NCBI GenBank assembly: GCA_014804485.1
Contig: JAAUZT010000018.1
Span: 1-64,000 of the forward strand
Length of the DNA stretch: 64,000 nt
Reading direction: 5' to 3'
DNA from: Lachnospiraceae bacterium
Lineage (GTDB): Bacteria > Bacillota > Clostridia > Lachnospirales > Lachnospiraceae
Shown here: in pieces, positions 50,076-60,211 of the stretch
Position numbering within the stretch: the stretch's first letter is position 1
Layout: the number at the start of each line of letters is the position of its first letter
Notes under the pieces: model-generated
Told to the model about the DNA's origin: nothing
Databases searched by the model: none
Seen by the model: only the letters and a program-made list of their open reading frames with translations
Translations under genes and position numbers: made by a program

Positions 50076-51302
50076 CTATTTTACAACAATTTTCTTGAAA
50101 CTCTTTTTTCCTTTTTTTACTATAAATTCTTCGGCTGCAATCATCTCTTTCGTGTAGGATATCTTAATATCCCCCACTTTTTCTCCCTTTACGGAAACTC
50201 CGCCCTGCTCCACGGCACGGCGTGCCTCAGATCGGGATGCTGCCATGCCCGCTGCAACAAGAATTCCTAAAATATCAATATTTCCATCTATGAACTTATC
50301 GTCCGTCAGCGCCACCGTAGGCATATTTTCCGAGCTGCCGCCTCCGGCAAAAAGCGCCTTCGCCGCCTCTTCCGCTTTCTTCGCCTCTTCTTCTCCATGA
50401 ACAAGATTCGTCAGTTCATAAGCCAGTATTTCTTTCGCTTTATTCAACTGGCTTCCTTCCCATTGATCCATCTCGTCAATTTGCTCTAACGGCAGGAACG
50501 TCAACATACGCAGACATTTCAGCACATCCGCATCCGCTACATTCCGCCAGTACTGATAGAACTCAAAAGGTGTCGTCTTATTCGGATCAAGCCATACCGC
50601 ACCTTTCTGGGTCTTTCCCATCTTCTTACCCTCAGAGTTCAAAAGCAGCGTGATCGTCATGGCATACGCATCCTTGCCAAGCTTCCGGCGAATCAGATCT
50701 GTACCGCCCAGCATGTTGCTCCACTGGTCGTCACCGCCAAACTGCATGTTACACCCATATCTCTCATACAATTCCATGAAATCATAACTCTGCATGATCA
50801 TATAGTTAAACTCAAGGAAGCTCAATCCTTTCTCCATTCTCTGTTTATAGCACTCCGCCCTGAGCATATTATTGACACTAAAACAAGCCCCGACATCGCG
50901 GATAAATTTCACATAATTTAAATTTAACAGCCAATCGGCATTGTTGACCATCAGTGCCTTACCATCTGAGAAGTCGATGAATCGGCTCATCTGTTTCTTA
51001 AAACATTCGCAGTTGTGATCGATCGTCTCCTTCGTCATCATAGTTCTCATATCGCTCCTGCCGGAAGGATCTCCAATCATCGCCGTACCGCCCCCGATCA
51101 GGGCAATAGGCTTATTTCCCGCCTCCTGCAAGCGCTTCATGAGGCACAGCGCCATGAAATGCCCTACATGCAGACTGTCCGCTGTCGGATCAAAACCGAT
51201 ATAAAAAACCGCTTTACCGCTGTTGATCAGATTCCTGATCTCATCTGCATCCGTAAGTTGTGCAAGTAATCCTCTTGCCTGAAGTTCCTCATAAATTCCC
51301 AT
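50076..51302 (-). CDS. tyrS: Tyrosyl-tRNA synthetase
   Basis: A 408-residue class I synthetase. The HIGH-like motif is LHVGHFM, the tyrosine pocket has FDPTADS and SYDFMELYERY, and the KMSKS-like motif reads KKMGKT. A C-terminal S4 RNA-binding domain (about 345-408) completes the normal layout. The start at 51302 has AAAGGAA nearby; a longer frame upstream falls in the duplicated leader repeat. Expression is controlled by the tyrosine T-box at 51580-51899. About 280 bases, mostly a tandem repeat, separate the T-box terminator from the start. Confidence 0.95.
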   Translation of the reverse strand: MGIYEELQARGLLAQLTDADEIRNLINSGKAVFYIGFDPTADSLHVGHFMALCLMKRLQEAGNKPIALIGGGTAMIGDPSGRSDMRTMMTKETIDHNCECFKKQMSRFIDFSDGKALMVNNADWLLNLNYVKFIRDVGACFSVNNMLRAECYKQRMEKGLSFLEFNYMIMQSYDFMELYERYGCNMQFGGDDQWSNMLGGTDLIRRKLGKDAYAMTITLLLNSEGKKMGKTQKGAVWLDPNKTTPFEFYQYWRNVADADVLKCLRMLTFLPLEQIDEMDQWEGSQLNKAKEILAYELTNLVHGEEEAKKAEEAAKALFAGGGSSENMPTVALTDDKFIDGNIDILGILVAAGMAASRSEARRAVEQGGVSVKGEKVGDIKISYTKEMIAAEEFIVKKGKKSFKKIVVK

Positions 51303-51330
51303 TGTTCCCATTCCTTTCCATTCTTTCTTA

Positions 51331-51448
51331 ATTCCGTGTATAAGCAGACTTGAAATGCTACGCATTCCGAGTTCGCGTTGCTCGCCGTAAGCTCTGTGAG
51401 ACATGCTTATATGCAAGCGTAACGCCTGTCTCGCATAGCTTTTGGCTC
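51331..51448. repeat. 118-bp tandem repeat, unit 1 (tyrS leader)
   Basis: Unit proximal to tyrS. It matches unit 2 at 110 of 118 positions by eye. It contains AAGCTCTGTGAGACATGC and the nearly complementary GCCTGTCTCGCATAGCTT, so the RNA should fold. Its right end runs directly into unit 2. Confidence 0.85.
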
Positions 51449-51579: not shown

Positions 51580-51899
51580 AAAAAACCTCGTCCCGTGTAT
51601 ATAAACACATAGGACGAGGTTACTCTCGTGGTACCACCTATTTTTACAGACAACTCGCATTGCCGGCCTCAATGAGTACGATTCCAAGATATATTCTTAT
51701 ACGAATCATCTCTTCCTGATACTCTCCTGCTATAACGTGCATTCCCCGTCACGACCTACTAAGACCCGCCATTCTGCCGTGAAGCTCCAAGATGTATTCA
51801 TAAAAAACTTCCCGTGCGCCTCTCATCAACCGGCTGCTTTCTGTACGTTCCGTAATCTACTACTTGTTCTTATCATCGCCTGTATAATTATTTGTTATT
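51580..51899 (-). promoter_or_regulatory. Tyrosine T-box riboswitch of tyrS, with terminator
   Basis: Minus strand. The T-box proper AGGTGGTACCACG lies at about 51642-51630. The specifier is TAC (51796-51794) within GAATACATC in stem I, matching tyrosine. Stem I motifs (GATGATAAG, AGATTACGGAACG, GGTTGATGAGAGG) are upstream. The terminator stem is AACCTCGTCC (51584-51593) with GGACGAGGTT (51612-51621), followed by TTTTTT. Uncharged tRNA-Tyr would favour the antiterminator and allow tyrS expression. Confidence 0.92.
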
Positions 51900-51968: not shown

Positions 51969-52105
51969 GCACAGATGAAAGTTAATATCTTAAGGAGACC
52001 CTTAAAAAGCGTCAGTGCTTAACGAGGTTTCTCACGAGTTTAGCACCTGTTACGCTTTTTACGGAGCGAAAGCGCGGCTCCGTAGATATTAACTTTCATC
52101 TGTGC
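51969..52105. repeat. 137-bp palindromic element, copy 2
   Basis: Same length and layout as the copy at 31247-31383. Ends are GCACAGATG and CATCTGTGC, and the inner stem is GTGCTTAAC with GTTTAGCAC. It overlaps the 3' end of the hybrid kinase gene, supplying its last four codons (TDES) and stop codon, and ends just upstream of the tyrS promoter. Confidence 0.8.
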
Positions 52106-54872
52106 GTCCGATTTGCATCATTTCATTCAAAATCACCTTAACCTGATGGAAATCAAACATATCATATGCCTCTTTCAATTTCCTCATTCGTGCATTAACA
52201 TCTGCCCCGAAATTTCTGGAAGCCATTTCCGGCACAAGCTTGTCCGTCACCTTCAGATTCATTTTATCCAGTTCCGTCTTGAGGTTTTGCAATATCTGTG
52301 CAGTCAATTCTTCTGCTTCCTTCTCCTCGGTATTCTGCTCTGTCTCCGCCTCATTGAAGCTTCCGATACTGATCAGATATTCTTTCACCTCACCGAGTAT
52401 CTCTCTGAATTTTTCCAGACATGAGTCAAACTGCCTGTTGATCGTATCAGTATCACCCGCTTTACCCGCAAATTCCAGCTCTTTAAAAAGCGCGGACACT
52501 TCCATGGCGCCGATGGCGGCACTGGAGCTTTTGATTCCGTGCACGTCTGTGGTAAAAAGTTGGATATCTCCAACTTCCAGCAGATTCGGCAGAAGCTCCA
52601 GATATTTCAGACCTTCTGTATAATAGGTATTAAGAATTGCCGCGTACGCTTCCTGATTAAAACCGATATTTAAAAGACCTTTATCTTTGTTCAGCCCGCT
52701 CTCCGGTTTCTTTTCTCCGTTTTTTGATATAGACTTATTTTTACCTTGTCCATCCCTGTCGTCCTTTGCCTTGACATGCTCGATCAGCCTTTCCGGCAAA
52801 AACTCCAGCAGACATTTTTCAAGATATCTTCGCTTAACCGGCTTGGCAAGATATTCCTGAAATCCAAGTTCAAGCATCTCCTCCCTGACATTCGCACCAT
52901 TCTGCGCAGTCAGCGCAACAAAAGGCAGCTCCTTGTAATAGTGATCTTCCTTAGCCCGGATCTGTCTGAGTACTTCATCACCGCCCAGATCCGGCATAAC
53001 CATATCCATCAGTACCAGATCATACTTTTCGTTCTCCAATTTCCTAATGCCGTCCTGTCCACTGGTGGCTACTGCAATATCAATGCCATATTTGCTGAAT
53101 ATACCTGCCGCAACTTTCAGATTTACCGCATTATCATCCACGACGAGCACTCTGGCTTTCCTTGCCGTAAAGGTCTCCACCAGAGCACTCTTCTTATAAT
53201 CTTCCTTGTTCCATCTGTTATTCAATACCATAGAGACCGTAATACACGAAAACGGCCGATATATAAGCCGGCACTTACCATAATCGCCGTAAACCGCATC
53301 ATATCCCGAAGTCACATACGTATACTCCTGACACTGATACAGGGAAATAATATTGGACAAATTCTCATACACCGCATCCGGAACAAAAATAAAGTCGAAA
53401 TGTTTCTCCTGAATGGCATGAGCGAACGAGTAATAATTGCGGCTGTATACAGGTCTGACATCGAATGTCTCCATGATATCCTGCCATCTTGCAATGCTGA
53501 TATCATTATCCGCATAAATTAACACGCTTGGTTTCTTCTCATTCTCTAAACGAATCATAGGAGACGCATCGACGATCTCCTGCCGAAAAGTGAATGTGGT
53601 GGATAATCCGATCCCCTCAATACTTTCCACCTTGATATCGCCCTGCATCATGGCAAGCAGTTCCTTACAGATGGTAAACTTGAGGCCGACTCCTTTCAGA
53701 TTGCTGGATTGCCTGGAGTCATAAGTTTCATACATGCCGAAAAGCGACTGTATGTCTATCTGAGACAATCCTTTTCCGGTATCCGCGACCATACAATAAA
53801 AAGTTGCTACTCCCGTCTCTATATCCTTCTCACATCTGACCTCCAGAACAATTCTTCCGCTCGCCGTAAAATCAATGGAGATAAAGAGCAGATACAGAAA
53901 GATCTGACGGATCGTGACACTGTCACCCAGAAGCTCTTTCGGTATATTTCCGTCTATCTTCATATCCAGATATAATTTCTTTTTCTGCAATTCCTCCGAG
54001 ATTGTACGTATAATTCCCTTGATCAGTTTCTCAAAACTGTAAGTACTCTTGATCAGGTGCATATCTCCCGCATCGATTCTGGCATATGTAAGAACGTCGT
54101 CAATGATAGCCAGTAAATCATATGCCGCACTTCTGATCGTGTTGATACTACTCCGTGTCTCATCATCCTGTTCTCCCTTAAGCATAATCTCGGACAAGTT
54201 GATAATCGAATTCATAGGTGTTCTTATCTCGTAGGACATATTCTTCAGGAATTGTCTCTTGGCGGCGCCTGCCCGCTCTATCTTACGGCTGCTGCGCTTG
54301 ATCTTCCACTGCTGATGCAGATAAAATTTCTCTTGAATATAGATCAACATAATAATGAAAAGCGCGGTCCCTATAAAGCTGATCGCCAAATCCGAAAAGT
54401 GGAAGTTCTCACTAATATGATATACATCATTTCCCTTAGAAAAAAACACATCACTATACAGATAACAATACTCAAATATAAACAAAACCAGAACCGGCAG
54501 AAACATAAAACCGTCAAAAACAGAATAAATGATAATCATGCTCGCTACAAACCACATAATTGCTATACAATATGCACCACTGCTGATTTTCAGAATCATT
54601 GGAATTGCAATACCATCCAGTATAACCAGCGTAAGTATCGCGGTCAGATTATGTTTTCTATATCGCAAATTCCAAATCAAAAGAAGACCGCAACCCAAAA
54701 TGATCAAAAGAATGGGCTCCGCCATTCTGTCAAGATTACTGAACACTAATACAATCGGCAATATGATGGTGCTTTCCATAACAACCATAGCAAGAAACAA
54801 GTTTAGATTAAACTCCACAAGTCCCATGCTTGATATTTTTTCCCCGATGATCCGGTCTAATTTACAATCCAT
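52089..54872 (-). CDS. Degenerate hybrid histidine kinase with receiver and Hpt domains
   Basis: A 927-residue membrane protein. About six transmembrane segments (25-180) lead to a DHp-like helix whose H-box reads NMSYEIRTPMNS, with Tyr 214 where the phospho-accepting His belongs. In the ATPase domain the N-box Asn is lost (LLFISIDFTASG), while a D-box (DTGKGL) and a partial G2 (GVGLKF) remain. A decayed receiver-like region (about 445-575) is followed by an intact receiver (VLVVDDNAVNLKVAA; LMDMVMPD) and a C-terminal Hpt domain with the His in DVHGIKSSSAAIGA. It cannot self-phosphorylate in the normal way. The start at 54872 follows GGGAAG. It is the last gene of the cluster and a paralogue of the gene upstream. 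Confidence 0.85.
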   Translation of the reverse strand: MDCKLDRIIGEKISSMGLVEFNLNLFLAMVVMESTIILPIVLVFSNLDRMAEPILLIILGCGLLLIWNLRYRKHNLTAILTLVILDGIAIPMILKISSGAYCIAIMWFVASMIIIYSVFDGFMFLPVLVLFIFEYCYLYSDVFFSKGNDVYHISENFHFSDLAISFIGTALFIIMLIYIQEKFYLHQQWKIKRSSRKIERAGAAKRQFLKNMSYEIRTPMNSIINLSEIMLKGEQDDETRSSINTIRSAAYDLLAIIDDVLTYARIDAGDMHLIKSTYSFEKLIKGIIRTISEELQKKKLYLDMKIDGNIPKELLGDSVTIRQIFLYLLFISIDFTASGRIVLEVRCEKDIETGVATFYCMVADTGKGLSQIDIQSLFGMYETYDSRQSSNLKGVGLKFTICKELLAMMQGDIKVESIEGIGLSTTFTFRQEIVDASPMIRLENEKKPSVLIYADNDISIARWQDIMETFDVRPVYSRNYYSFAHAIQEKHFDFIFVPDAVYENLSNIISLYQCQEYTYVTSGYDAVYGDYGKCRLIYRPFSCITVSMVLNNRWNKEDYKKSALVETFTARKARVLVVDDNAVNLKVAAGIFSKYGIDIAVATSGQDGIRKLENEKYDLVLMDMVMPDLGGDEVLRQIRAKEDHYYKELPFVALTAQNGANVREEMLELGFQEYLAKPVKRRYLEKCLLEFLPERLIEHVKAKDDRDGQGKNKSISKNGEKKPESGLNKDKGLLNIGFNQEAYAAILNTYYTEGLKYLELLPNLLEVGDIQLFTTDVHGIKSSSAAIGAMEVSALFKELEFAGKAGDTDTINRQFDSCLEKFREILGEVKEYLISIGSFNEAETEQNTEEKEAEELTAQILQNLKTELDKMNLKVTDKLVPEMASRNFGADVNARMRKLKEAYDMFDFHQVKVILNEMMQIGRTDES

Positions 54873-54900
54873 ATTCTTCCCGTCCCAAAATTTTGTCGAT

Positions 54901-57006
54901 CTACTGTGCTTTTTCCGCTTTATCATTTGTATAGATAATCTTCTCCTCCGGCAGGTACGACCGTAGAACCTTTTCGAATTTATCCCGCTCAATCGGCTTA
55001 GAAATATACTCATCAAATCCTGCTTCCAGAAACATTTCTCTGGCTCCGCTGACCGCATTGGCTGTAAGGGCGACAATAGGTATCTGATCCAATCGAGGCT
55101 CCTTCAGCGCCCTGATATTTTTCAATGTATCAATCCCATCCATCTCCGGCATCATATAATCTAAGAAGATGAAATCCACCGGTTCCTGCTGCAACATCTT
55201 CAGACATTCCCTTCCGCTTACCGCTACCGACACCTGTGCCTGATAACGGTTTAAAAGACTTGTGGCCACTTCCAGATTGACAATATTGTCATCCACTACC
55301 ATAACATGAGCATCCGGGCAGATAAATCCGCCTCTGTATCCGATATGACGTATTGTACTGTTCTGTCTGCCGGTAAGAAGCGCATCCAGACTCAGACAAT
55401 TAACCGGCCTGTCAAATGTTGCCCTGATCAGGGCATCCTCGTAAGCCAATACAGTAGAACCGATCAGAATAAGCGACTGTGGGGTAAGTAAACCGGCAAG
55501 TCTACCCTTGATACTTCCATATCTTTCCACGGCGATCATGATATGTGTATAGCTTTGTTCCACACACTCTCTTAAGAAACTCTCATCGTCAGCTGCCCGA
55601 CAAAAATCAACTTCTATAGCACTCAGCGCTCCGGCAAGCATATTCCCCTGCTGTGCCGTATTCTCATAGAACAGAACACATGGATTCCCCGCCAAGGGTC
55701 TCTCCACAAGAGGCGTCTTCATCCGGTATTCCTGCCTGATATCAAAATAATACGTTCTCTTTGTCGGTTCTTCGTCCATGTTCAGCTCGCCACTCATGAG
55801 CTCTATGAGACGATTCGGAAGTGGCATAATCTCCTCATCGCAGTCCGGATTCTGCGTCTGTTCACGGTACAGCCAATCTCTGTAAGAATATTGAAATGAT
55901 CCTTCCGCACATACCTCAACTTGCAGACGAATCTCCTGCTCTGTGGCATCTTCCTTTCGGATATTCAAATACACTTCTCCGCTGTCTATCGACTTCATGA
56001 TGCCGAGCCCGATGCTTAACAGTATCTGTCGAACGATCGTTATATCTCCACATAGCTGGGCCGGAATGTCCGGATCAATATTCACATAGAATTCTATCTT
56101 ACGATCCGCAAACCGCACGGAAATCACATTGATTAATTCGTCACAAATATCCCCTATATAATAAGGTCTGTCCGCAACGGCCAGATCGCTGTCATCCATC
56201 TTTGAGAAATCCATCAGTTCATTAGTAATTGATAAAAGAGCCTTGCTTGAGTTGGCCATATGAAAAGCATTCGCTTTCACTCCGTCCTCCACATCCAGAT
56301 CAAGCAACAGCTCCGTGATTCCTAATATGGCATTGAGGGGTGTTCTGATCTCATGGGATACATTAACTAAGAACATGTTTTTCGCATAGCTCAACTGTTC
56401 CGCCTGCTGTTCCATCTTGGTGCTTCTGTCAACCTCTCTGCGCAGCAATCTGTTACGGTAAGAAATGAGCACGCCGCACACCGTGCCTGTCAGAAACAGC
56501 GCCGCAATGATCCTGAGCAGCAGAACCATTCTGTAAGGCGCATGCTCGCTCCATATTATTTCAGATTCTGATACCGTCCGAATCATATGATTGATACAAC
56601 CCAGATCGATGACCGTATTGATCACAATGAAAACCGCTGCACATCTTTTTTTCAAAAGAATCGCCGTGAAGGTAATGCCCGTAAGAAAATAAACCGGAAA
56701 ATCATAGACTGCGTACGGCACATAGAGCGATGCCATAGGCACAATGATAAAGTGCATCGCACAAAGATATCCCATGGAGATCTGCCTGATCCGACTTATT
56801 CTGCTCTCCATATAAATTGCTGCAACAGTAATGGCAATGCCTACCGTCATCAGAAGCGGTACGCGAATATCCAGCCGAAGGAGCAATGTAAAAAAAACTA
56901 TCGCCGAACACTCCACCAGGCTCAACAACATAGCCACATGAAATAGCAGCTCCTCCGCCGGCAATTCTATATCAATATATTTCTCCAACCGTTGCTTTGC
57001 TGTCAT
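54901..57006 (-). CDS. Hybrid histidine kinase with intact H-box but decayed ATPase domain
   Basis: A 701-residue membrane protein. About five or six hydrophobic segments (20-185) precede a normal H-box, NVSHEIRTPLNAILG, with His at about 218. The region that should bind ATP has no N-box Asn (LLSIGLGIMKSIDSG) and no DxGxG box (VEVCAEGSFQYS), so catalysis is unlikely. A decayed receiver-like segment follows (about 425-545), then an intact receiver (VMVVDDNIVNLEVA; FLDYMMPEMDG). It lacks the Hpt found in its paralogue. AAAGGGG precedes the start, 21 bases after the HD-GYP gene. It may be phosphorylated by a partner. Confidence 0.85.
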   Translation of the reverse strand: MTAKQRLEKYIDIELPAEELLFHVAMLLSLVECSAIVFFTLLLRLDIRVPLLMTVGIAITVAAIYMESRISRIRQISMGYLCAMHFIIVPMASLYVPYAVYDFPVYFLTGITFTAILLKKRCAAVFIVINTVIDLGCINHMIRTVSESEIIWSEHAPYRMVLLLRIIAALFLTGTVCGVLISYRNRLLRREVDRSTKMEQQAEQLSYAKNMFLVNVSHEIRTPLNAILGITELLLDLDVEDGVKANAFHMANSSKALLSITNELMDFSKMDDSDLAVADRPYYIGDICDELINVISVRFADRKIEFYVNIDPDIPAQLCGDITIVRQILLSIGLGIMKSIDSGEVYLNIRKEDATEQEIRLQVEVCAEGSFQYSYRDWLYREQTQNPDCDEEIMPLPNRLIELMSGELNMDEEPTKRTYYFDIRQEYRMKTPLVERPLAGNPCVLFYENTAQQGNMLAGALSAIEVDFCRAADDESFLRECVEQSYTHIMIAVERYGSIKGRLAGLLTPQSLILIGSTVLAYEDALIRATFDRPVNCLSLDALLTGRQNSTIRHIGYRGGFICPDAHVMVVDDNIVNLEVATSLLNRYQAQVSVAVSGRECLKMLQQEPVDFIFLDYMMPEMDGIDTLKNIRALKEPRLDQIPIVALTANAVSGAREMFLEAGFDEYISKPIERDKFEKVLRSYLPEEKIIYTNDKAEKAQ

Positions 57007-57027: not shown

Positions 57028-58092
57028 TTATCCTGCCACACTTTTAATCTCACTCTCCACGGAGAGAAAGAGATCCACAAGTGCAGGATCCAAACACGTA
57101 AATTTCATGAACTTAATCTTCATAATCGCCTCCTGATGGCTGAGCACTTTGCTCCCGGGCGCGATATTACGCAGGTTATCATATGTATTCACGATCGCAA
57201 GCGCCCTCGCTTCAATCGGAATATTCTCTCCATCCAGCCTGTCCGGATAGCCTTTGCCATCCCATCTTTCATGGTGGCTGCGGCACATATTAAAGGCATA
57301 ATTCATAAAATTATTCTCTCCTGCACTAAGCTGTGTAACCTTAGAGAGCATATCCGCTCCCAATGTCGTATGCGTCTTAACTGCCTCGCGTTCAAATTCG
57401 CTCCCGTTGCCGTTTCTCGTGTTATTCAAATACTGATCGGCGATACACAGTTTACCCATATCATGGATCTGCGCTGCCACGCATATGGTTGTGCCGTCAT
57501 CCGCAGTCAATCCATATTTACCGCTGCGCACCATAGCACTGACCAGTATATCCATATATCTCTCCACCCGTCTTGCATGGTCACCGCCGAAACCATCTCT
57601 CTTTGACAAAAGATCCACAAACATTGCAACAATAGAATACTGCAGTTCCAGATTCTTTTTATTCTTTTCCTGCACAAGGTTATTCAGAGATTTATTCATC
57701 TCCGCCAGCTTCCGCTGTTGTGTGAGAAGCTGAATCTGGATATCCACACGCTTCTTTAAAAGATTCGCTGTATAAGGCTTCCTGATATAATCCATGGCTC
57801 CCAGATTATAGCTTTCCAGCTCGGTAGTATCATCGTCCTGTGCCGTCAGAAAGATAATCGGAATATTCACCAGTTTCGGAACATTCTTCATTTCCGAAAT
57901 AACCTGAAAACCATTTACATTAGGCATGTCAACGTCCAAAAGTACGAGATCCGGAAGTTCCGGCATATCGTTTAGACACTCCAGCGCAGATATCCCCGAA
58001 GACACCGGAATCACTTCATACTCCTCCTCCAATGTTTTCCTTGCCATAATCAGATTGGCCATATTATCATCTACAATCATTACACGATACAT
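57028..58092 (-). CDS. Response regulator with HD-GYP c-di-GMP phosphodiesterase domain
   Basis: A 354-residue soluble protein. The N-terminal receiver (about 1-120) has MIVDDNMANL, the phospho-acceptor Asp in LVLLDVDMPNVNG and the Lys in IRKPY. A coiled linker (about 125-155) leads to an HD-GYP domain with DHARRVERY, IHDMGKL and HHERWDGKGYPDRL, the full set for this family. It should break down c-di-GMP when phosphorylated or released. GAGGTG precedes the start. The gene lies 37 bases after the VWA gene and 21 bases before the first hybrid kinase, so it is the likely output of the two kinases. Confidence 0.88.
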   Translation of the reverse strand: MYRVMIVDDNMANLIMARKTLEEEYEVIPVSSGISALECLNDMPELPDLVLLDVDMPNVNGFQVISEMKNVPKLVNIPIIFLTAQDDDTTELESYNLGAMDYIRKPYTANLLKKRVDIQIQLLTQQRKLAEMNKSLNNLVQEKNKKNLELQYSIVAMFVDLLSKRDGFGGDHARRVERYMDILVSAMVRSGKYGLTADDGTTICVAAQIHDMGKLCIADQYLNNTRNGNGSEFEREAVKTHTTLGADMLSKVTQLSAGENNFMNYAFNMCRSHHERWDGKGYPDRLDGENIPIEARALAIVNTYDNLRNIAPGSKVLSHQEAIMKIKFMKFTCLDPALVDLFLSVESEIKSVAG

Positions 58093-58129: not shown

Positions 58130-59326
58130 TCAGCGGTTTGTCATTAGTTTGACCATTGCCTGATTCAGTCCGTCCACCGTCAGTTTATACATCGGAAACA
58201 GTCCCTTGATCGCTGTCTCCGCTTCCCGCCACGGCGCATGACCCGGTGCCATTTTCGGATTGAGCCATACAATTTTCTTGTAATGCCTTTTCATTAACAT
58301 CAGCCACTCCATGCCGGACAAACCGCCGTTAGGTCCTCTGTAATTACCCGTCGTAGAATACAATTCCTCCGGTGCCATCGCCGCGTCCCCCACGATAATG
58401 ACCTTGTAATCACTGTCCAGATTACGAAACATCCACTCTGTCTCAATCCAATCTCCATTCTCACACTCCGGCGTATTGTACAGATTGGAGTAAATGCAGT
58501 TATGGAAAAAATAAGTCTTGACATCCTTATAGTGATTGGATTTATACACGGAATGAAACAACTCATTCAAGAGTGTCGTATACGGAATCATGGTTCCGCC
58601 GGAATCCATAAGGAGCAGCAGTTTCACTGCATTCTTGCGCGGTTTCTCCATCACGATCTGCAGACAGCCGCCATTATTGCAGGTGGCATCCACCGTACCG
58701 TTTATATCAAGCTCTGTCTTCGGAATATCTAGTTTTGCAGAAAACTGCCGCAGTTTCCTGAGTGCCATCTGAAACTGTCTGTTATCCAGGACCTTGTCAT
58801 TACGGAAATCTCTGTATTTCCTCGCACCGACCACTTGAAATGCGGATTGATAGCCCGTCGTACCTCCTACTCTGATACCGCCCATGTTTCCGCCCATGTT
58901 TCCAAAGGCCGTTTTACCCATAGTGCCGATCCAGTAGCTGCCCCCATTGTGCTCCTCGTTCTGATCCCGCAGTCTGTCCTTAAATTTATTCTCGATGTCT
59001 TCCTGATCCATCGTGACTACTTCCTGATTCATCTCGTGGCGCATCTCCTCGAAGACTTCCTGCATCTCCGGTTTGTCCAGCCAGCGCATCATATTCTTGC
59101 TTATTTCGTTTTCCGACTGGATTCCTTTAAATACTTCATCAAAAGCCATGTCAAATTTATCGTACTCCGTCTCTGACTTGACCAGTATCATCCGCGATAC
59201 ATAATAAAATTCCGTCAGGCTGCTGTTACACAATCCCTGTTGAAGCGCATCCTGCAGAGTAAGCCATTCGCTTAAAGAAACTTCCAGCCCTTTATCCTTC
59301 AAAGTATAGAAAAACTTACTGAACAT
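58130..59326 (-). CDS. VWA-domain protein, MoxR-partner (CoxE-like) type
   Basis: A 398-residue cytoplasmic protein. The helical N-terminal half (about 1-150) is followed by a glycine-rich strip (MGGNMGGIRVGGTT) and a von Willebrand A domain with the metal-site loop LLMDSGGTM and a late VIIVGDAAMAPEEL. Such proteins work with MoxR ATPases as chaperones that insert cofactors or remodel complexes; the client is unknown. The start at 59326 is preceded by GGGGG; an upstream ATG at 59359 is possible. It is encoded 63 bases after the MoxR gene. Confidence 0.8.
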   Translation of the reverse strand: MFSKFFYTLKDKGLEVSLSEWLTLQDALQQGLCNSSLTEFYYVSRMILVKSETEYDKFDMAFDEVFKGIQSENEISKNMMRWLDKPEMQEVFEEMRHEMNQEVVTMDQEDIENKFKDRLRDQNEEHNGGSYWIGTMGKTAFGNMGGNMGGIRVGGTTGYQSAFQVVGARKYRDFRNDKVLDNRQFQMALRKLRQFSAKLDIPKTELDINGTVDATCNNGGCLQIVMEKPRKNAVKLLLLMDSGGTMIPYTTLLNELFHSVYKSNHYKDVKTYFFHNCIYSNLYNTPECENGDWIETEWMFRNLDSDYKVIIVGDAAMAPEELYSTTGNYRGPNGGLSGMEWLMLMKRHYKKIVWLNPKMAPGHAPWREAETAIKGLFPMYKLTVDGLNQAMVKLMTNR

Positions 59327-59389
59327 AGAACCCCCATAACCCATACAGTCCATAGTCACCTACGCTCTGCATGCATCGTTTCTGCCACA

Positions 59390-60211
59390 TCAGAAATCTG
59401 TTTTGTTCTTAACTGTCTCTAAATCTTCGTCCTTCTTGACCACTACGCCGATAAAAGGAAGCTCCTGCCGAAGTCTGTCTGTAGGTATCCCACCGATCTG
59501 CAGTGCATTGATCCAGTCGATCAGTTCCGAAGTGCTGGGCTTCTTGCGAATGTCCTTCATGGAACGGATCCAATAGAAAACCTCCATTGCATCGTGTAAC
59601 AGCTTATCCTCCACATCGGGATAATGTGTCCTGACGATCTCTTCCATCAACGTCTGATCAGGAAAATCAATATAGTGGAAAATACATCTTCTAAGGAAAG
59701 CATCCGGCAGTTCTTTCTCCGCATTTGACGTAATGATGACGATCGGTCTGTGCTTTGCCTTAACTGTCCGCTTCGTCTCATGAATATAGAATTCCATCTG
59801 ATCCAACTCCCACAACAGGTCATTGGGAAATTCCAGATCCGCCTTATCGATCTCGTCAATCAGAAGAATCACCTGCTCGTCCGAATCAAAAGCCTCCCCA
59901 AGTTTACCCAGTTTGATATAGTGGGCGATATCATCAACCCCCTCTTCCCCGAACTGTCCGTCGTACAACCGTTGGATCGTATCATACATATATAAGCCGT
60001 CCTGTGCCTTAGTGGTGGACTTGATATTCCATATAATCAGCTTCTTCCCAAGAGAATCCGCCACCGCCTGCGCCAGCATAGTCTTGCCCGTCCCGGGCTC
60101 TCCCTTTACAAGCAGCGGTTTCTGGAGTGCAATCGCCACATTGACGCTTGCCAGTAATTGCTGCGATGCCACATAATCCGTGGTACTGTTAAAATTATTC
60201 TGCACACTCAT
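59390..60211 (-). CDS. MoxR-type AAA ATPase
   Basis: A 273-residue AAA+ ATPase. Walker A is GEPGTGKTML (about 37-46), Walker B VILLIDEIDKAD, sensor 1 VIITSNAEKELPD, and the arginine finger region AFLRRCIFHYIDFP. It pairs with the VWA protein downstream, the usual two-gene module. AAAGGA precedes the start. As first gene it probably drives the whole five-gene row ending at 52089, so it may service a signalling complex at the membrane; this link is inference from order and spacing. Confidence 0.88.
   Translation of the reverse strand: MSVQNNFNSTTDYVASQQLLASVNVAIALQKPLLVKGEPGTGKTMLAQAVADSLGKKLIIWNIKSTTKAQDGLYMYDTIQRLYDGQFGEEGVDDIAHYIKLGKLGEAFDSDEQVILLIDEIDKADLEFPNDLLWELDQMEFYIHETKRTVKAKHRPIVIITSNAEKELPDAFLRRCIFHYIDFPDQTLMEEIVRTHYPDVEDKLLHDAMEVFYWIRSMKDIRKKPSTSELIDWINALQIGGIPTDRLRQELPFIGVVVKKDEDLETVKNKTDF

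Follow-up and report, generated by a model that had tools for sequence, protein, structure and literature searches.

Two adjacent hybrid histidine kinase genes of Lachnospiraceae, designated here HKa (upstream) and HKb (downstream), are by sequence comparison a conserved gene pair, and in the genus of the bacterium under study their losses are complementary, with similar losses seen in two other genera. The parts lost are both ends of a phosphoryl transfer from the HKa ATP domain to the HKb histidine, while the parts kept are both ends of the opposite transfer, from the HKb ATP domain to the HKa histidine. The reading proposed here, to which we assign a little less than an even chance, is an asymmetric HKa/HKb heterodimer, in which HKb would donate the phosphate, HKa would accept it, and the Hpt domain of HKb would relay it to a REC-HD-GYP response regulator; we infer dimerization, ATP binding, phosphotransfer, and the direction of transfer alike from the sequences.

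Organization of the locus

The window, i.e., the whole 64,000-nucleotide stretch of DNA analyzed, carries on its minus strand, in order, genes for a MoxR-type AAA ATPase (59390..60211), a VWA (CoxE-like) protein (58130..59359), a REC-HD-GYP response regulator that is the probable output of the pair (57028..58092, Pfam), HKa (54901..57006), and HKb (52089..54872), and then, after a T-box leader (51607-51885; Rfam, 104 bits), the tyrS open reading frame (50076-51416). Given gaps of 21 bases between the HD-GYP and HKa genes and 28 bases between HKa and HKb, these three genes likely form one operon. The syntenic MoxR and VWA genes were considered as necessary parts of the system and rejected. A VWA match was found in 76 of 397 sampled family genomes, the kinase pair was seen in only one (L097) of 20 VWA neighborhoods fetched, some of whose contigs ended early, and in a congener (G370) the site contains VWA and tyrS but no kinase pair. 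Since VWA is present where no adjoining kinase pair is seen, it marks the site and not the system. A palindromic repeat of ~137 nt with perfect 22-nt arms (51969-52105; RNA fold z -8.3) spans the HKb stop codon; 40 places in the genome, including this one, match most of its length at 76% or more, and sister species have a longer element at the same site, apparently with a second palindrome.

HKa (701 aa) consists of a membrane sensor, a DHp domain, a degenerate ATP-binding (CA) domain, a putative decayed receiver, and a receiver. Its N-terminal part is hydrophobic and has no Pfam name; the HisKA domain comes next, with the H-box NVSHEIRTPLNA (56329..56364, minus strand), which reads NVSHEIRTPLN and contains the phospho-acceptor His218 (56353-56355). 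In the CA domain (55732..56187, minus strand), the N-, D-, and G2-boxes are lost: the N-box position reads QILLSIGLGIMKS, with Asn missing at the metal position, VCAEGSF stands in place of DxGxG, and a Pfam search gave no HATPase_c match. The one clear receiver (54940..55314, minus strand) has its Asp in FLDYMMPEM and is preceded by a receiver-sized stretch.

HKb (927 aa) is built as membrane sensor, DHp domain with Tyr in place of His, CA domain, putative decayed receiver, receiver, Hpt domain, and C-terminal tail. The listed open reading frame opens at a TTG (55076) inside HKa, and the true start is likely the ATG at 54872, which is preceded by GGAAGA. A hydrophobic N-terminal part, in which Pfam names nothing, is again followed by HisKA, whose H-box reads NMSYEIRTPMN, with the Tyr214 codon (54231..54233, minus strand) at the phospho-acceptor position. 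The CA domain is recognized by Pfam as HATPase_c (E 6.2e-14) and retains DTGKGL and GVGLKF; its D-box ADTGKGL (from 53783) and signature lid YETYDSRQSSNLKGVGLKF (53732-53667) together occupy 53667..53783 on the minus strand. The N-box QIFLYLLFISIDFT (53859..53906, minus strand) is altered, with Ile331 for the missing Asn and Asp334 (53871-53873) for the canonical Lys. The receiver (52791..53156, minus strand) has its Asp in LMDMVMPD, and the Hpt domain (52407..52637, minus strand; PF01627, E 1.2e-4) has its His in DVHGIKSSS, with the HGIKSSS motif.

The states of the H-, N-, D-, and G-boxes that an earlier note on this DNA had named for both kinases were all confirmed in the sequence, as were an intact receiver in each (Pfam E 6.5e-25 in HKa and 3.6e-24 in HKb) and the confinement of Hpt to HKb, where the Pfam match of 22.7 bits lies slightly below the 24.6-bit cutoff. 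Its claim of a decayed receiver ahead of the true one was borne out as to the stretch itself, ~110 residues without a Pfam match between the ATP domain and the receiver, which may descend from a receiver.

Distribution and conservation of the pair

A collection of genomes from 84,980 species, most of the named ones being MAGs, was scanned with one pattern, the HKb ATP lid [YF][ET][TIK]YDS[RK][QK], which misses other lids. Of the 34 loci that it yielded, 33 belong to Lachnospiraceae, and the last (L132, Saprospiraceae) was considered a chance match; this one and a fragment (L131) were excluded from the family. HKa lies upstream in 32 of the 33 aligned HKb (the window and L099-L130), the contig of L127 starting just before HKb. 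An HKb match occurs in at least 24 of the 77 genomes of the window's genus, possibly an undercount in a search that scored 18 candidates per genome, in 16 of 18 genomes of a second genus (g206), and in all four of a third (the genus of G365). Altogether, 70 HKb and 68 neighboring HKa were compared, HKa being unreadable in L127 and L206, whose contigs start just before HKb, and L169 being without the HKa H-box. Motif columns were taken from MAFFT alignments, in which deletions of the lid make the HKa G2 column uncertain.

The HKa histidine is kept in all 67 readable copies, as is the HExxT/HDxxT motif that contains it, and the HKa receiver Asp is present in 68/68. Within the window's genus, VN[VM]SHEIRTPLNA is kept in 23 of 23 readable copies (11 of 12 positions invariant and one V/M among 22 full-length pairs), while the N-, D-, and G2-boxes are gone in 24/24. 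The HKb of this genus has at the phospho-acceptor position Tyr (20 members), Asp (one), Gln (one), or His (two, L180 and L188), together with the D-box ADTG[KR]G and the lid YDS[RK]QSSNLKG[VI]GL in 24/24 each; its N-box is fixed in a noncanonical form, Q[IV]FLYLLF[IV]S[IL][DE], in which the Lys position is acidic (Asp/Glu) in every member. YDS is invariant in 32 homologues, the recruiting pattern itself containing YDS. The HKb receiver Asp is found in 65 of 68 readable copies and replaced by Asn in three.

Among 55 other, mostly hybrid, kinases, chosen by similarity and not at random (one non-kinase ORF of L061 was left out), H, N, D, and G2 are kept in 54, and the remaining one (L065) has Gln for His. 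The idea that all tandem hybrid kinases are degenerate was rejected, both proteins having intact motifs in the other tandem pairs read, of which several lie after HD-GYP genes. Aligned with close homologues, the losses described in the earlier note are conserved across the genus (HKa ATP motifs lost in 24/24, HKb His in 22/24), and recent decay or sequencing error was thus rejected as their cause. The note had also held that intact homologues would speak for recent decay only, which came out half true: complete HKa proteins do exist in other genera (38/68), yet the whole genus shares the decay, and purifying selection acts on the genes. Its suggestion that neither kinase works alone and that the two may form a heteromer fits well with losses that are complementary and common to 24 genomes of the genus.

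The substitution of the phospho-acceptor also bears on a reading without phosphoryl chemistry, in which the Tyr core and ATP pocket of HKb would sense a phosphorylated receiver or a nucleotide and would regulate a third kinase through contact. Such a role would resemble that of DivL, which has Tyr at the same place according to the excerpted text of PMC4211667, and Tyr is the residue in 20 of the 24 HKb of the genus. However, Asp and Gln are also accepted there, and the HKa His, both receiver Asp residues, and the Hpt His, none of which a pure scaffold needs, are strongly conserved, making this reading improbable.

The HKb ATP pocket

The N-box Asn and Lys are normally required for catalysis. 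The Asn is missing in 64 of the 70 HKb copies, suggesting that HKb was already in part a pseudokinase when HKa decayed; it is missing in all 16 g206 copies, 13 of which adjoin a complete HKa, so its loss appears older than the decay of HKa in the window's genus. One helical turn past the lost Asn, an acidic residue is present in all 24 HKb of the genus and in L102, while the 16 g206 copies have S, A, Q, or F; copies next to a complete HKa can likewise be acidic at this place, as are 8 of 11 such copies among L119-L130 and also L113 and L114. That it might be a moved metal ligand is speculation. In a nine-member clade (L103, L105-L107, L109-L112, and L115), the D-box Asp of HKb is missing in 9/9 and the CA domain is nonetheless well conserved, suggesting that the HKb CA domain can serve a noncatalytic role.

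These observations bring in a second alternative, namely, that the HKb ATP domain was already dead and the sole working autokinase step ran from HKa ATP to the HKb His, which would have been lost once the HKa ATP domain had gone, so that the pair would now act as a phosphatase or phosphate sink, through the HKa HExxT motif, draining an HD-GYP regulator fed by another kinase. The widespread absence of the N-box Asn is better explained in this way than by the heterodimer, and the universal HExxT/HDxxT motif agrees with it. The invariance of the HKa H-box His is in itself more than phosphatase activity requires, and is explained worse, as are the near-invariant D-box and lid of HKb in the genus; in addition, the HKb of three loci (L108, L116, and L118) retains Asn while its His is gone. 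RetS, an example of such logic, is among the solved structures nearest by sequence to both HKa and HKb (6dk7 and 6dk8, besides 7z8n, annotated only "Histidine kinase"). This alternative is regarded as serious, although on balance unlikely.

Coupled losses across lineages

Of the 68 pairs, 38 have a complete HKa CA domain, including most of those outside the window's genus, and 30 have a decayed one. Beside a complete HKa CA domain, the HKb His is always kept (38/38); beside a decayed one, it is lost in 26 of 30, the four exceptions being L102, whose H-box is otherwise altered too, L180, L188, and L205. Similar pairings are found within genera. In the genus of G365, the trio L108, L116, and L118 has a decayed HKa CA domain and an HKb with Gly, Leu, or Met in place of His and with N-box Asn and D-box kept, and in their congener L104, HKa is complete and HKb retains His, Asn, and D-box. 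In g206, a complete HKa and the HKb His occur together in 13 pairs; L164 has lost both the HKa G2-box and the HKb His, which its 13 congeners keep, and L205 has lost only the HKa G2-box and part of the D-box. The call "decayed" for L108, L164, and L205 rests on the G2-box and is weaker, as the HKa N-box Asn and D-box Asp remain, although the HKa of L164 and L205 also lacks the last Gly of the D-box. The trio also has Asn for Asp in the HKb receiver, with the Hpt His kept, and its HKb seems reduced to an ATP domain plus Hpt.

A tree was built from 60 of the 70 rows, with motif columns removed and near-identical or truncated rows excluded. At least four HKa CA losses and at least four HKb His losses are placed on it, all of the His losses within HKa-decayed lineages. 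As these lineages make up 32-38% of the tree length, the probability that four of four fall there by chance is 0.010-0.020, a post hoc figure. An earlier, smaller tree (51 rows) placed two HKa CA losses and put the branch-length probability at 0.051, and a sign test on independent pairs gave p 0.5, significance being unreachable with four changes. Neither cis chemistry nor independent decay would be expected to produce paired losses of this kind. Judging by L180, L188, and L205, the evidence suggests that the HKa ATP domain decays first.

Selection and divergence

Mean identity among 22 full-length pairs of the genus is 76% for the HKa DHp domain, 44% for HKa CA, 77% for HKb DHp, and 71% for HKb CA, and mean dN/dS among the four closest species is 0.017, 0.224, 0.000, and 0.051, respectively. 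All parts are therefore constrained, with the HKa ATP domain least so within the two kinase cores, and the genes of the pair are under purifying selection. A further reading is simple decay of a duplicate pair that is not needed. It is seen in one module, that of L102 (the L032 locus), which is apparently decaying: HKa is split into several frames, HKb carries no Hpt, and no HD-GYP gene adjoins it. As an account of the pair in general it was already disfavored and is extremely improbable, given that in the genus the frames are open and synteny is kept, and that the species groups computed all have dN/dS values well under 1.

Relative rates of divergence gave mixed signs. The HKa CA/REC ratio is 2.21 and 2.37 in the decayed groups versus 0.95-1.59 in the intact groups, and for the HKb CA/DHp ratio the genus has 1.24 (0.93-1.67) and the trio 0.78 (0.56-1.09), versus 1.58-2.01 in three groups with intact HKa, with intervals that partly overlap. 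In contrast, HKa CA/DHp showed no shift (2.32 and 1.99 in decayed groups versus 1.06-4.38 in intact ones), and HKb CA/REC showed no tightening in the window's genus (1.48 versus 0.98-1.39 in intact groups), being tightened in the trio only. It is these mixed signs that limit the strength of the heterodimer reading.

The constraint on the HKb ATP domain also bears on whether HKa could instead receive its phosphate from a third, unrelated kinase, or act in mixed dimers with another HisKA protein, HKb giving only its receiver and Hpt domain. The genome has 43 HisKA matches, of which this pair accounts for two, and the receiver and Hpt of HKb are conserved, as that scheme would have it. It leaves unexplained both the constraint on the HKb CA domain (dN/dS 0.051) and the paired losses between neighbors, and is very improbable.

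Phosphorelay output

Of the 24 loci of the genus, 23 have a REC-HD-GYP gene next to the pair, the remaining contig being too short; in the adjoining genes found, the receiver Asp and HD residues are always present, and the last motif is GYP or GFP. Every untruncated locus with HD-GYP, 42 in number when L101 with one X in its motif is included, has the Hpt domain on HKb, whereas 15 untruncated loci are without both, and seven have Hpt but no HD-GYP. This co-occurrence, in which related rows are not independent, supports a transfer from Hpt to HD-GYP, and with it the link to the HD-GYP regulator put forward in the earlier note. The conservation of receivers, Hpt, and HD-GYP in the genus suggests that phosphate traffic through the pair persists there.

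Other outputs and losses were seen elsewhere. Five g206 loci (L199, L200, L202, L203, and L204) have an HKb without Hpt, no adjoining REC-HD-GYP gene found, and a complete HKa, an apparent joint loss of relay and output. In L119 (4857-7587), genes for a pseudouridine synthase and an NAD-dependent DNA ligase come after the pair, and like-sized genes follow in most of its clade; a small receiver-like gene, by Pfam a receiver in L121, precedes the pair in several members. L119 and its kin likely have a different output.

Discussion

In the proposed heterodimer, which would be obligate, the HKa ATP domain would originally have phosphorylated the HKb His and the HKb ATP domain the HKa His, both in trans. 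Several lineages, including that of the window, would have discarded the first half-reaction, whereupon the HKa ATP domain and the HKb His decayed, and would have retained the second, in which ATP is bound by HKb and phosphate accepted by the HKa His. The phosphate would then move through the intact receivers and the HKb Hpt domain to the REC-HD-GYP regulator, which would set the c-di-GMP level. The half-reaction that is kept needs a functional HKb ATP pocket, and that of L108, L116, and L118 looks able to work. Against the heterodimer stand the HKb of the window's genus, which has neither the N-box Asn nor the Lys, the four pairs with decayed HKa that retain the HKb His, and the small number of independent events. 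A stronger version of the proposal, namely, a natural obligate heterodimer of full-length hybrid kinases in which the same trans half-reaction was lost at least three times in parallel, with a relocated Asp/Glu metal ligand in the HKb pocket of the window's genus, is distinctly doubtful.

If true, the heterodimer would be a natural pair fixed as ATP donor and His acceptor, whose relatives on one tree range from intact through half-changed to fully changed, offering a stepwise view of how obligate heteromers evolve from paralogues. It would also provide a sequence readout of cis versus trans autophosphorylation, since the pattern of losses predicts trans chemistry. If the pair is instead a phosphatase, it would add an independent example, from gut bacteria, to the known cases of RetS-like logic. 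Neither this pair nor a natural, reciprocally degenerate HisKA pair appeared among the matches listed in the open-access literature, a body of text that leaves most subscription papers outside, and nothing was found there on a Lachnospiraceae hybrid histidine kinase together with HD-GYP. The excerpted texts of PMC5992135, PMC4211667, PMC3591291, PMC4734776, a review (PMC12189002), and the ChrS paper (PMC9491836) contain no natural full-length HisKA hybrid pair with opposite losses.

Several known systems, described here from excerpts of the papers cited, share parts of this arrangement. RetS and GacS of Pseudomonas are likewise two interacting hybrid kinases, GacS having a receiver and Hpt, and RetS, with an intact H-box and a degenerate ATP domain, acts as a transmitter phosphatase and phosphate acceptor toward GacS (PMC5992135). 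HKa resembles RetS in combining an intact HExxT H-box with a degenerate ATP domain. Of the two receiver domains expected of a RetS-type regulator, HKa has one clear copy, the stretch ahead of it giving no Pfam match. Unlike that pair, in which GacS autophosphorylates (PMC5992135), most copies with a decayed HKa have lost the HKb His, and the HKa and HKb genes are adjacent and change together. DivL of Caulobacter is like HKb in that Tyr replaces the H-box His and the ATP domain is retained; it binds an ATP analogue weakly, acts on CckA, and showed neither kinase nor phosphatase activity (PMC4211667). However, CckA is a kinase, whereas the neighbor of HKb is without a complete ATP domain in the window's genus.

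The trans chemistry itself has counterparts. ArcB shares the domain types of this pair as a hybrid kinase, and its autophosphorylation proceeds in cis (PMC4734776), which counts against the trans reading. In EnvZ, on the other hand, an ATP-dead protein (G2-box mutant) and a His-dead one (H243A) complement in trans (PMC4734776), so that, as proposed for HKa and HKb, one subunit has no working ATP site and the other no His; these are laboratory mutants of a single protein, whereas HKa and HKb are a natural pair. CheA3 and CheA4 of Rhodobacter sphaeroides, neither of which autophosphorylates alone, place the ATP site and the accepting His on two proteins (PMC3591291). Here, the H-box His is on HKa only in most of the genus and the ATP motifs are on HKb only, but minus the N-box Asn, which is present in the HKb of L108, L116, and L118. 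In the CheA-class proteins, however, whole domains are missing, whereas HKa and HKb keep the HisKA hybrid plan, with their motifs decayed in opposite ways.
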